Of a stretch of 33,326 bases of DNA, positions 14,464-18,679 are shown one piece after another. The notes beneath the pieces were generated by a model that did not search any database, had not been told where the DNA came from, and worked only from the letters and a program-made list of their open reading frames with translations. A program made the position numbers and the translations under genes. How positions within the stretch are numbered: position 1 is the stretch's first letter; every line of letters starts with the position of its first letter. Origin of the DNA: an uncultured Rhodospirillales bacterium (GTDB lineage Bacteria; Pseudomonadota; Alphaproteobacteria; Azospirillales; Azospirillaceae); contig CAIZDL010000071.1 in the NCBI GenBank assembly GCA_903931735.1, positions 1-33,326 on the forward strand. Direction: 5' to 3'.

Positions 14464-15801
14464 CTATTTCCTTCCCGGCGTGAGCCCTTGGGTGATATTT
14501 AGCGAGAGCAGGCAGGGCATTTGGTTCGGGAGCACCGGGCCGTGCTCAAAATCCGTGTGGTCCAGGCACTCTGCGAGGGCCGGGCTCATGTTGCCGGCCA
14601 ATGTCGCGGCCAGCAACAACAGCTTTTGTGCGCGCGGATCGGCACGGGCGAGGATCAGCGTGCCGGCTTCCCAGGGGGTGCGTGCACCGGTTATCGCGGT
14701 TACGGCCTTGACTCGCCACTCCATTGGAGCAAGCCGGGCGGTGGCGAAAAACAAAAGTGGCCCCAGCATTAACGCCGCCGCCACCAGCCCCGCCGTTACC
14801 CAGGTGTGCCGGCGCAGGCCAAAGGTGCGCTCAGCGGCATGGGCCAACGTGCTGGCGCGCAACGCTGCCTGATGCTCGGTTGCCGCCTCGGCATCATAGA
14901 GCGGCGAGGTTGGGTTGGTCACCCAGGCGACGAGACGGCTGGCGATGGCCATTTGAGCCGCAACCGGGTTCCAGCCATCGCCAATGGCGTGCATCGCCCC
15001 AGAACCCCGGTTGGCGGCGTCTTCCAGGCGTTGTACCAACTCGACGGTCAAACCGACATAAGCGCTGGCGGCGGTCGAGCGCGGCCGGTGAAGCAACAAG
15101 GGCCGGCCCAAAACAGAAGCCGCCGCAAGCTCGGGGCTATAGGGGATTTCGGTGGTTAGCACTTGATCGGCAAACGAGCGGCGCACGGTGGCGGCCAAAG
15201 TTTTGGCGCCCTGGGTGTCGCCGTCCTGGCGCTGCATGGTCAGTAAAACATCGAGCACCGGTCGGGGCTTTTGGGCGGCGTCCGCGAGGTTGGCCATAAA
15301 CTGGTCAAGGTGGCGTAATCCTTGGAGCGCATAAGCGTCGTAGGGCAGCGGCACCAGCACCCGGTCGGCGGCGAGCAGCGCGTTGATGGTCAAGCTGCCG
15401 AGCGAGGGCGGGCAGTCGATCACCACATAGTCGAACGGTTGACTAAGGGCCTGAAGGGCCTGTGAAAGTCGGTGCTGCCCTTCGTGTTTGGTCGAAAGAT
15501 CGGCCTCCAGTTGGGTGAGGTTGAGGCTGGCCGGCGCAACCCACAGATCGGGAATTCTGGTTTGCCAGACCACGCCTTGATGATTGCCGCCCTCGGTCAG
15601 TAATTGGTGAGTGCCGCCCTCGCCACTGGCAATCAACGCAAAGCCGACATTGGCGCTGGCGTTGCCCTGGGGGTCGCAATCGACCAGGAGAACCGGCCGC
15701 CCGGCGGCGGCCAGCGCGGTGGCGAGGTTGACGGCGGTTGCGGTTTTGCCAACTCCGCCCTTTTGACTGGCCACCGCGATGATGTGGGAGTGCTCGGCCA
15801 T
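14464..15801 (-). CDS. ParA-family ATPase with C-terminal membrane anchor
   Basis: A 445-residue protein. Residues 1-260 are a ParA/Soj-type ATPase with the deviant Walker A SQKGGVGKT (12-20), DCDPQGNAS (41-49) as the second nucleotide-binding motif, and VIDCPPSLG (127-135) as Walker B/switch II. The fold includes PLPYDAYALQGL as in chromosome-partitioning ParA. A linker of about 70 residues follows, then one clear transmembrane helix (334-354) and about 90 further residues. ParA proteins usually lack a transmembrane helix, so this one is probably fixed in the membrane. No parB lies nearby, which argues against chromosome partitioning. It is the last gene of a four-gene set; the gap to the gene before it is two bases. 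Confidence 0.88.
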   Translation of the reverse strand: MAEHSHIIAVASQKGGVGKTATAVNLATALAAAGRPVLLVDCDPQGNASANVGFALIASGEGGTHQLLTEGGNHQGVVWQTRIPDLWVAPASLNLTQLEADLSTKHEGQHRLSQALQALSQPFDYVVIDCPPSLGSLTINALLAADRVLVPLPYDAYALQGLRHLDQFMANLADAAQKPRPVLDVLLTMQRQDGDTQGAKTLAATVRRSFADQVLTTEIPYSPELAAASVLGRPLLLHRPRSTAASAYVGLTVELVQRLEDAANRGSGAMHAIGDGWNPVAAQMAIASRLVAWVTNPTSPLYDAEAATEHQAALRASTLAHAAERTFGLRRHTWVTAGLVAAALMLGPLLFFATARLAPMEWRVKAVTAITGARTPWEAGTLILARADPRAQKLLLLAATLAGNMSPALAECLDHTDFEHGPVLPNQMPCLLSLNITQGLTPGRK

Positions 15802-15803
15802 AT

Positions 15804-16685
15804 CTAGCTTCCCGGCGGTCGGAGATTGATCAGGGCTTCAAGGCCAACGCGCTTGCCGGCCCCGCTTCCTTGCGTGGTTTCGGCCTCGTCGCTTGGTTTT
15901 TCCCCCGGCCCTGGGCGGGAGGTGCCATAAAGCGCCGCCCACAAGGCCGCCGCTTGGGCGTTTTGTGGCGGTGTGGCCGGTACGCTGAGAGAGGCCCCGG
16001 TGGCGGGAGCGACCCCGGCGGCGCGGCGGCCTTTTGCGCGCTTAGGCGGAAGCGGAGCCAGCCGCCCCGGTCCGAATGAGGGTAGGGCCGGGGCTAACGC
16101 CGCAGCGGACGAGGCCGACCAGCTCTTATCCCCAACCAAAGATTTCAAGTCGTTGACATCGATCCGGCGGTAAAAGATCAGCCGGCACCTTCGGGACAGC
16201 ACCACGTAGGGCATTCCCAGCACGACCAAAAACCCGAGCACTAAAAACGACCCCGGTGCCGAGGCTCCCCGCACGATTTGTTCGAATCCCGCGAGTCCTG
16301 GCCCGGCAAGGCCAATGCCGGCGAGCATGTGTCCGGCTTCAGCGGCAATAAGGAGTGTCAGGCCAAAGGTCACGATTAGGTAGAAGGCGGGAAAACGCGG
16401 GTGCTTGGCGAGACCCAGCCCCGCCGCCGTTAATGCCAAAACCGACAGAACAACCTTCCCGAGAGTGAGCAGCAGGAGGGCCGAGCCAAGATCAGGGTTG
16501 AAAAGATCAAATGATATGACAGGTTCGATCAGTCCAATGGTCCCGACCAATGCCAGGAGCACAATCACCACCAAGAGTACCCCGGTCACCACCGCATCGG
16601 GGTGGGATGCAGCGGTGAGGTAATCGACGGTCACGGTCCGCCGCGATTTCCTCCCGGCCGTTGCGGGCGGTTTGGTCTCGGACAT
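15804..16685 (-). CDS. Four-helix membrane protein with a DUF2569-like pattern
   Basis: A 293-residue protein. A basic cytosolic N-terminus of about 30 residues is followed by four predicted membrane helices (about 33-55, 68-92, 101-122, 143-165). The fourth runs into MPYVVLSRRCRLIFYRR, which recalls the end of DUF2569 proteins. The remaining 120 residues are an Ala/Pro-rich, probably disordered cytosolic tail. Function unknown. It sits nine bases after the Mic60-like gene and two bases before the anchored ParA gene, so it very likely belongs to the same transcript and perhaps the same complex. The DUF2569 similarity is from memory and moderate. Confidence 0.75.
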   Translation of the reverse strand: MSETKPPATAGRKSRRTVTVDYLTAASHPDAVVTGVLLVVIVLLALVGTIGLIEPVISFDLFNPDLGSALLLLTLGKVVLSVLALTAAGLGLAKHPRFPAFYLIVTFGLTLLIAAEAGHMLAGIGLAGPGLAGFEQIVRGASAPGSFLVLGFLVVLGMPYVVLSRRCRLIFYRRIDVNDLKSLVGDKSWSASSAAALAPALPSFGPGRLAPLPPKRAKGRRAAGVAPATGASLSVPATPPQNAQAAALWAALYGTSRPGPGEKPSDEAETTQGSGAGKRVGLEALINLRPPGS

Positions 16686-16694
16686 AGCCGCCCC

Positions 16695-17906
16695 CTATTG
16701 GTTCCGGCTGACCGCAGGACTGGGAATCGCACCCTGGCGCAACGCCGACATGGCGGCATCGGCATCGAGCCGGCTGTGGGCCAGGGCCAGCCAGCGCCCG
16801 GCCAATTCGCCGGGGTAGGCATGTAAATCTTCAAGCTGCCGAACCGCGACCGGCAGGTTGCTGAGGCCCAGCGCCGCCCGAATGCCGCCCAGAGCCGCCC
16901 GAAAGCGCTTCGATTCCGGGGTGTCGCTCAGCCCAAAGCCTGAACCGATCCAGCCGAAAAACCGGCTGAAGACGTTCTGATCTCGCGAAACCTCAACCAG
17001 TTGGGGTGCGAACTGGTCGCGGACATCGACAACGCCGCCAAGCTTGGGGGCGATTTCATCAAACCGTTCCCGAAGGGCGATCAGTGTGGGGACGCCGGTG
17101 GTGGCATTGCTCTCCAACTGGCTGGCAAGCGAGGCAAGGTTGGTATCCCCCGATAGCGCGGTCGATATCCGGTCAAGCTCAGCCTTGAAGGGTGCGCCGC
17201 GCTCGATTGCCGCCTGGAGTTGGTCGAGTGCTGAAGAAAATTGCACGGCGCGCATGGCTGTGCCAAACTTCAGATCGACAGTTGCGGCAAGATCGCTGAC
17301 CCGATTATCAACGCCAACCAACCGTTTGGCCAGTTGCGCCTGATCACGCTCCACCTCATCGAGCTTTGTGATCAGGGTGCCTGGGATCTCGGTGCTTTTT
17401 GGCTCAACCTTCGTTCCGGGCAGCAGATAGAGCACAATTACGGTGAGGAAGGCGCCAACCAGCATCAACCCGGTTGCGGCGGCGATGCCGAGGGTCAGCC
17501 AGCGCATCCCTTTGCGGGTCCGCCACCAGGAGCGGCGCGCGGCTATTGCTGCGGTTAGCGTGGCCTCTTCATCATAAACGGCCTGTTCTTGATCGTCGCC
17601 GTCCCCGGCATCGTCGCTTTGGTTGGGTTCGCCATGCTCGGGCAGAACCTCGGTTGCTTCCTCGGTGACGGGCGGGGTGGCGGCGTCGCCAATCTGCGCC
17701 ATCATCGAGTGCGTATTAAGGCTTCTAAAAAGAACAACGTAATCCTCGTCTGAAAGGAACATCAGACGAGAATCTCGGGCTGCAAACAAATCCCACCGTT
17801 CGGCCAGCGACAACGCCAGCAGAGAATCCAGCATAACCGCGCTTTCGTCGCGGCTGGCCATCCAACTGTCGGTGATGAGTCGGTCGAGAGTGTCGATCCA
17901 GGACAT
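16695..17906 (-). CDS. Membrane protein with Mic60/mitofilin-like C-terminal region
   Basis: A 403-residue protein. Residues 1-130 are cytosolic and end in an acidic stretch. One transmembrane helix lies at about 136-163, followed by a coiled coil (residues about 175-235). The C-terminal part has the pattern of alphaproteobacterial mitofilin/COG4223 proteins: ATTGVPTLIALRERFDEIAPK, then an amphipathic segment, then repeated helices ending in RWLALAHSRLDADAAMSAL. That family tethers membranes and shapes cristae or intracytoplasmic membranes. The true alphaproteobacterial Mic60 is normally next to haem biosynthesis genes and lacks this N-terminus, so this appears to be a paralogue or new architecture. 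I chose the ATG at 17906, whose first base is the last base of the preceding TAA; the in-frame start at 17966 lies inside the upstream gene. Confidence 0.8.
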   Translation of the reverse strand: MSWIDTLDRLITDSWMASRDESAVMLDSLLALSLAERWDLFAARDSRLMFLSDEDYVVLFRSLNTHSMMAQIGDAATPPVTEEATEVLPEHGEPNQSDDAGDGDDQEQAVYDEEATLTAAIAARRSWWRTRKGMRWLTLGIAAATGLMLVGAFLTVIVLYLLPGTKVEPKSTEIPGTLITKLDEVERDQAQLAKRLVGVDNRVSDLAATVDLKFGTAMRAVQFSSALDQLQAAIERGAPFKAELDRISTALSGDTNLASLASQLESNATTGVPTLIALRERFDEIAPKLGGVVDVRDQFAPQLVEVSRDQNVFSRFFGWIGSGFGLSDTPESKRFRAALGGIRAALGLSNLPVAVRQLEDLHAYPGELAGRWLALAHSRLDADAAMSALRQGAIPSPAVSRNQ

Positions 17907-18679
17907 TATCGTGAAGCCATACCGTGAGTGACTGGGGCCAGGGCCAACGTAAGTTGCTTCAGCCAAGTAGCGTAATCGCCGGTAGCTCTCCTGGCGGCGA
18001 GAATGCCGAGGCCGGTCATCTGGGCTACGGTTTTGGGATCGAGGGTGATGACTTGGGCCGGCGGCATTTTAAGCCGTTCGAAGTCGGTCCACGCCTCGCT
18101 GACGCAACTCGCCATTTCAACGATGTAAAGCCCCCGGTCGCGCATCATTTCAATCCGCCTGAACTCGGGCGTGCCGCCGTAGGTGTCAAAAGGTCCGGCC
18201 TTTTTATTGAGCACCAGAATGCGTCGGCAAAACGGGAAGATGCGCTCAACCGTTTCTAAAACCTCCAGCCCCGATGATACCGCCAGCGGTTCGGCGGTAA
18301 TAGGGACGTAGATGTCCATGGTAACGCCGGAATCTTCAAAGAGCGAAGCAAGGTTCGACTTCTCGGCCCAGGAAAGGATTAGCCGGTCCATGTTGGCGCC
18401 AATATCGACGCCGGTATCACCCTCGACGATTTCTTCGGCTAGCCGGTCCCAATAGCTAAAAGCCAGAGATGGATTGGCTCTGATCTCGTCCATCGAGGCG
18501 CCGATCTTGAGCGAAAGCACCTTGTCGGGGCCCATAAATTCGCTAAGCTTCGCCTTGTCATCAGCATCGATCAGGCGTAATGGCCGTCCGGATGCCTCAT
18601 AGATCGCCGCGAGAGCCATCATGAGAACCGACTTTCCGACGCCTCCCTTGCCGTTCGCGACCCAAACTGTATGTGGCAT
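17906..18679 (-). CDS. ParA/TraL-like P-loop ATPase
   Basis: A 257-residue cytosolic ATPase. The deviant Walker A reads ANGKGGVGKSV (8-18), and the second motif is RLIDADDKAKL. Unlike ParA proper, there is no DxPP switch II; the matching place reads DIYVPITAEPL. VLNKKAGPF probably provides the adenine-contact Asn. This divergence recalls TraL/MinD-like NTPases of conjugation or polar positioning systems. AAGGAAG lies a few bases upstream of the ATG, and the stop overlaps the next start (TAATG). It is the first gene of the four-gene cluster, following a promoter-like site and a structured leader. Its partner is probably one of the two membrane proteins encoded downstream. Confidence 0.85.
   Translation of the reverse strand: MPHTVWVANGKGGVGKSVLMMALAAIYEASGRPLRLIDADDKAKLSEFMGPDKVLSLKIGASMDEIRANPSLAFSYWDRLAEEIVEGDTGVDIGANMDRLILSWAEKSNLASLFEDSGVTMDIYVPITAEPLAVSSGLEVLETVERIFPFCRRILVLNKKAGPFDTYGGTPEFRRIEMMRDRGLYIVEMASCVSEAWTDFERLKMPPAQVITLDPKTVAQMTGLGILAARRATGDYATWLKQLTLALAPVTHGMASR

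Follow-up and report, generated by a model that had tools for sequence, protein, structure and literature searches.

What is a mitofilin-like C-terminus doing on a protein with an unrelated N-terminus, encoded among ATPase genes? Mic60 provides the key argument for deriving mitochondrial cristae from the shaping of membranes in Alphaproteobacteria, and the initial annotation of the DNA studied here proposed that one of its genes encodes a Mic60 paralogue recruited by ParA-type ATPases. The gene lies on the minus strand (ATG at 17906, stop at 16695) of the window, by which we mean the whole stretch of 33,326 nucleotides that was analysed, a complete contig (C71) of the 3.48 Mb genome G000. We refer to proteins that carry the N-domain linked to the first ATPase of this cluster (ATPase1) as type A, and to canonical-type Mic60 proteins of the kind encoded on contig C38 of the same genome as type B.

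Organization of the gene cluster and of the type A protein

We found four genes packed tightly together on the minus strand, the type A gene being second in order. The first (17906..18679) encodes ATPase1, a ParA/MinD/TraL-like deviant Walker A ATPase of 257 amino acids, and its stop codon overlaps the type A start by one base (TAATG). The type A gene (16695..17906; 403 amino acids) is followed by a third gene (15804..16685) for a membrane protein with four hydrophobic segments and a ParB-like tail, GKRVGLEALINLRPPGS, at its end. The last gene (14464..15801) encodes ParA2, a protein of 445 amino acids with a ParA (AAA_31) domain, one transmembrane (TM) helix and a C-terminal tail predicted to be periplasmic. 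The neighbours had initially been described as ATPase rather than haem genes, and ParA/MinD-type ATPases do adjoin the type A gene. The cluster contains no DNA-binding ParB gene.

The type A protein begins with a conserved cytoplasmic helical N-domain (residues 1-76; 17679..17906, minus strand), which we propose as the dock for ATPase1. Among 14 type A proteins, 13 residues of this domain, all in the stretch from position 7 to position 56, never vary; the remainder of the protein has two such residues. Its mean pLDDT in the AlphaFold2 (AF2) model is 84-91 for residues 1-60 and 72 for residues 61-70. An acidic linker of low model confidence (residues 77-114) follows, and a TM helix (residues 141-159; 17430..17486, minus strand; mean hydropathy 2.45) lies within a predicted helix spanning residues 113-161. 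From the predicted helix content we infer a topology in which this single TM helix leads into a periplasmic coiled coil. In the AF2 model, a long, coiled-coil-like periplasmic helix (residues 177-236; 17199..17378, minus strand) runs into the mitofilin-type domain (approximately residues 220-393; 16728..17249, minus strand), which was assigned from profile alignment with canonical Mic60, a Pfam match and helix order. No NCBIfam match to the carph-isopro N-terminus was found in the window's type A protein. The N-terminus is indeed unlike that of Mic60, as first described, with a conserved helical domain and an acidic linker in place of carph-isopro. The type A protein of Lamprocystis (L135:7844-8428) is shortened, its N-domain running on into the final portion of the mitofilin-like region with no TM helix and no first half of the mitofilin part; neither the profile sets nor the C-terminal tree includes it.

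The C-terminal part is almost certainly mitofilin-related

In single-sequence searches, the mitofilin domain scores at the Pfam cut-off. Pfam Mitofilin (PF09731) matches residues 195-288 of the window's protein with an E-value of 2.3e-6 and 27.3 bits, just below the cut-off of 27.4, and a six-frame search of the genome gives 27.5 bits, just above it. At an E-value of 0.1 or less, the Pfam model recognises only 5 of the 14 type A members. Profile-profile comparison is decisive: a profile built on the C-terminal parts of five orthologues within the window's genus aligned with haem-linked Mic60 in hhalign at 99.8%, with an E-value of 2.1e-27 over 234 columns, and the gammaproteobacterial type A profile aligned with Mic60 at 98.2% (E 3.7e-13). 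The main Mic60 set excluded four distant haem-linked Mic60s, which together with two others formed a separate set; the type A proteins of three further loci (L150-L152) were read and kept outside alignment A2, the profiles and the tree. Folded by AF2 from type A rows alone, the domain has helices at residues 241-251, 255-265, 275-303, 330-347, 351-359 and 367-393, with block pLDDT mostly between 74 and 94, except for about 46-53 from residue 291 to 330. Canonical Mic60 folded from Mic60 rows alone shows the same helix order, as compared by inspection.

All-helical, acidic, coiled-coil-rich proteins yield chance matches, so that the likeness might reflect convergence of a membrane-anchored helical coiled-coil protein. 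PDB structure searches with the type A model would fit such convergence, since they returned generic helical bundles alone and no MIC60 row; the positive control, a search with a canonical Mic60 model, likewise listed generic helical bundles and no MIC60, so that these searches favour neither view. A profile of type A proteins alone found no MIC60 structure among PDB sequences at E-values up to 1, and structure 7pv1 was matched (E 4e-10) by a profile that also held canonical Mic60. Against convergence, the hhalign match extends across the whole domain and conserved motifs (PF..EL, GVPTL..LR.RF and WL..A..RL.A) lie outside the coiled coil. The controls were null or far weaker: column-shuffled profiles, 10 per hhalign comparison, all reached 0.3% or less, the reversed Mic60 profile gave a best E-value of 0.0019 against the type A sets over 36 columns, and E. 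coli HemX gave a best E-value of 0.05 against the type A profiles. We regard convergence as extremely improbable. Judged from its sequence, the window's protein is almost certainly a mitofilin homologue, and the profile-profile search upholds the Mic60-like C-terminus that had been claimed for it. We also considered a HemX origin of the gammaproteobacterial C-termini and rejected it, given HemX E-values of at least 0.05 and the absence of PF04375 from 11 of 11 gammaproteobacterial host genomes.

A separate canonical-type Mic60 is encoded in the same genome

We found a second Mitofilin protein in G000, encoded on contig C38. It carries the carph-isopro domain (64.1 bits, cut-off 38), which is also found in a haem-linked Mic60 of the family (G016c); pattern matching showed its motif in most haem-linked Mic60s. 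The C38 protein aligns, N-terminus included, with other type B proteins and with haem-linked Mic60s of other genera. Since this separate Mic60 has the canonical N-terminus, our data indicate that type A is, with high probability on sequence grounds, a paralogue of Mic60; two draft genomes of the comparison (G002 and G003) yielded no second Mitofilin gene at an E-value of 0.01. The paralogy that was first proposed is borne out by the carph-isopro Mic60 on C38 and by the lack of that N-terminus in type A. The canonical copy expected elsewhere in the genome exists; the haem context expected for it is absent, and its neighbour is instead a gene whose product has a dynamin GTPase domain (E 1.3e-12).

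The haem locus bears on whether type A could be an ordinary Mic60 that moved away from it and acquired its ParA neighbours by chance. Among 30 genomes of the family outside the window's genus, 26 have a Mitofilin match within 3 kb of hemD (the exceptions are G008, G011, G012 and G013). Within the genus, none of five genomes has a Mitofilin match on the hemD contig (hemD was found in four of the five). Relocation is favoured by the lack of a Mic60 gene after hemD in G000 and, by inspection, in G001-G003, as well as by the two draft genomes in which no second Mitofilin gene was found. In G000, the gene after hemC-hemD looks, as read from its sequence, like one for an Hpt-domain protein. Relocation is opposed by the second Mitofilin gene with a canonical N-terminus in five genomes (G000, G001, G004, G011 and G013), by the separation of types A and B in the tree, and by the constancy with which N-domain and ATPase1 occur together in two bacterial classes (see below). 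We consider a relocated Mic60 very unlikely.

In a tree of 55 C-terminal parts, gammaproteobacterial type A (support 100/98), type A of the window's genus (100/100) and type B (98/98) each form a clade. Alphaproteobacterial and gammaproteobacterial type A are joined at a support of only 46/0, on long branches, and a single clade of alphaproteobacterial type A is neither demonstrated nor rejected (p-AU 0.32). Alignments A3 and A5 comprise 42 and 27 of these parts, respectively.

Several further associations of mitofilin-like proteins were observed. A dynamin-like GTPase gene lies beside the canonical-type Mic60 gene in all five type B loci (L003:82-3141, which is G000:C38, and L072, L073, L074 and L075). 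Mic60 and OPA1 are partners in mitochondria, and the pairing of type B Mic60 with a dynamin-like GTPase recalls that partnership; its occurrence in organisms with type A is a second striking link. In G020, also from Azospirillaceae, the gene for another mitofilin-like protein (L078:6264-8077; Pfam 32.2 bits) and the final part of a ParA-type ATPase gene overlap. In the tree this protein groups with type B and not with type A, and the overlap may represent an independent link to ParA. Two other mitofilin-like proteins (L076:5283-6710 in G026 and L077:5939-7375 in G019) are encoded in clusters of envelope-protein genes, which include an MlaA-like lipoprotein gene by eye.

Type A and ATPase1 occur together in two bacterial classes

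ATPase1 matches Pfam CbiA (32.9 bits, cut-off 25.4) and carries the deviant Walker A motif KGGVGKS, the corresponding motif of ParA2 being KGGVGKT. It is 62-96% identical to 13 alphaproteobacterial and gammaproteobacterial orthologues, with 62-66% between the window and the gammaproteobacterial ones. Alignment of ATPase1 against genome contigs gave 15 loci, six alphaproteobacterial and nine gammaproteobacterial, the latter in Thiospirillum, Allochromatium, Lamprocystis, Thiocystis, Halochromatium and Thiotrichales records; the gammaproteobacterial hosts of the module are mostly purple sulfur bacteria. At an E-value of 1e-40, ATPase1 was detected in 9 of the 210 genomes that represent the order of A. 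warmingii and in one of 385 sampled alphaproteobacterial genomes, namely the window's own. The ATPase1 tree places the alphaproteobacterial sequences together (95/54) and those of Chromatiaceae together (98/98).

A protein with the N-domain is encoded directly downstream of ATPase1 at 17 of 19 loci examined (7/7 alphaproteobacterial, 10/12 gammaproteobacterial), ATPase1 lacking type A downstream in Thiospirillum (L131) and at one Thiotrichales locus (L132). It is highly likely that type A forms a functional unit with ATPase1, and because the N-domain is the constant partner of this ATPase, it is the likely dock for it. The ParA association noted at the outset proved stronger than could be known then, since the N-domain keeps to a single ATPase family in both classes. 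Because the mitofilin-like part goes with the ATPase operon into Gammaproteobacteria, local recruitment of a Mic60 is not the sole possible history.

Presence in two classes suggests transfer, and there are weak matches to TraL (E 5.6e-4, 19.4 bits against a cut-off of 360) and TraB (17.8 bits against a cut-off of 863), as might be expected if the TraL-like ATPase and ParA belonged to a conjugation, plasmid-partition or phage module or were what is left of one. We consider this origin very improbable. The window's cluster is flanked by housekeeping genes, including those for aspartate carbamoyltransferase, HflX and D-amino-acid transaminase, and no conjugation genes were noticed by eye in the loci read. 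Carriage of ATPase1 by plasmids was rejected, with no close match in 72,556 plasmids (one match at 26.8% identity), and so was carriage by phages, with one match in viral contigs at 28% identity over a part.

Phototrophy was rejected as the common trait of the hosts, Photo_RC being present in 7 of 15 host genomes and in none of five in the window's genus. In the two genomes that have the system outside the window's genus, photosynthetic reaction-centre genes occur in multiple sets, with 4 Photo_RC matches in G011 and 5 in G013, some of them partial. Widespread in Azospirillaceae, with other neighbours, is a second and distant family of ATPase1-like proteins (approximately 26-29% identity; for example G000:C151:42378-43109, L119).

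The third gene and ParA2

No Pfam family matched the third gene. Its ParB-like C-terminal tail (15807..15863, minus strand) is a candidate ParA-activating peptide, and the tail motif GL[ED][ASD]L[IV] lies near the end of all 12 third genes scanned; the tail recurs in G002, L133 and L138. The chromosomal ParB of G000 begins MSEDTKKSEGGKRGSLGRGLSALFGE. In the available text of PMC12462528, the ParA-binding peptide of ParB is described as aliphatic and positively charged, and according to the available parts of PMC13170346, ParA/MinD ATPases depend on activators with such peptides, which in known systems sit at or near the N-terminus.

ParA2 matches Pfam AAA_31 with an E-value of 9.8e-47. It is 43% identical over 255 residues to the chromosomal ParA of the same genome, to which it adds a TM helix (residues 335-353; 14743..14799, minus strand) and a tail, and it is 31-40% identical to gammaproteobacterial ParA2s. 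Genes for the membrane protein with the ParB-like tail and for a membrane-anchored ParA usually accompany ATPase1 and type A. ParA2 lies on the opposite strand at some gammaproteobacterial loci and is not adjacent to the set in G011 and G013. The ParA2 of one Chromatiales genome (L151) ends in a SPOR domain (Pfam E 4.6e-6). ParA2s of Chromatiaceae (L150, L151, L152 and L136-L138) have a SPOR-like end, identified by eye except in L151; a ParA ATPase with a TM helix and a peptidoglycan-binding-type domain is an unusual fusion. A third, FlhG/MinD-like ATPase gene adjoins the set at three Chromatiaceae loci (L135:11062-11847, L138:11195-12082 and L150:7933-8832).

Proposed module and its meaning

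The best explanation of these data, which we consider about equally likely to be right or wrong, is that type A is a Mic60 paralogue with a mitofilin-type periplasmic domain and TM helix on a different head, and that it belongs to a ParA/MinD-type positioning module. The N-domain would provide the docking site for ATPase1, the third protein would stimulate the ATPase activity of ParA2 through its ParB-like tail, and the TM parts would make the complex span the inner membrane. On the periplasmic side, the mitofilin domain might oligomerise and bind or bend that membrane. What the ATPases position would then be a site in the membrane or envelope and not DNA: the pole, the division site or a junction of the intracytoplasmic membrane. 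That the module positions an envelope site is in our estimate slightly less than an even prospect; that the mitofilin-type domain actually bends the membrane is doubtful. We tentatively propose an undescribed envelope-spanning ParA/MinD system of Azospirillaceae and purple sulfur Gammaproteobacteria, in which a mitofilin membrane protein places or shapes a site of the inner membrane.

As for which site, the pole or the division site is favoured by the SPOR domain and by the FlhG/MinD-like genes that lie close by in Chromatiaceae. The same observations, the definite SPOR domain in Chromatiales and the similar ends seen by eye, together with the ATPase gene beside the set in L135, L138 and L150, would also fit a regulator of cell division or peptidoglycan in which the mitofilin domain serves only as a periplasmic platform for oligomerisation or partners and bends nothing, as would the fact that photosynthetic reaction centres are not common to all hosts. 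The window's own ParA2 has no SPOR domain in Pfam, and no division genes were noticed in its cluster; we judge such a regulator rather unlikely.

A type A paralogue with its own head, in an operon that is also gammaproteobacterial, shows that the mitofilin domain is modular, and its presence in gammaproteobacterial ATPase operons suggests that the domain has been transferred. If our proposal is true, mitofilin domains are not confined to Alphaproteobacteria and mitochondria and ATPases can control them spatially; the module would offer a system for studying whether ATP drives the placing of a mitofilin protein.

Comparison with known systems

The available text of PMC9764997 limits Mic60 to Alphaproteobacteria and mitochondria, and the available parts of PMC12631773 and PMC12136173 mention bacterial Mic60 in Alphaproteobacteria only. 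In the accessible portions of the open-licence literature we came upon no mitofilin protein described from Chromatiaceae or together with ParA genes, and a mitofilin-like domain in Gammaproteobacteria appears to be unreported. Like type A, the haem-linked Mic60 of Alphaproteobacteria has one TM helix, a periplasmic coiled coil and a mitofilin-type C-terminal domain. Type A differs from it in its unrelated N-domain and in its ParA/MinD operon instead of hemCD, and from canonical Mic60 in coexisting with a separate canonical-type Mic60 and in having relatives in Gammaproteobacteria as well. As far as the available text of PMC12631773 describes them, Mic34 and Mic40 of Euglenozoa are similar in that mitofilin domains occur on divergent, non-canonical proteins; these are eukaryotic and not integral to the membrane, whereas type A is a membrane protein in an ATPase operon. 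With ParABS, McdAB, PomXYZ and MinDE, the module shares deviant Walker A ATPases and a candidate activator peptide. Unlike these systems, it has two ATPases, one of them membrane-anchored, and a TM partner with a mitofilin-type domain; its cluster has no DNA-binding ParB gene, and its activator-like peptide is C-terminal, in contrast to those of known ParA/MinD activators.
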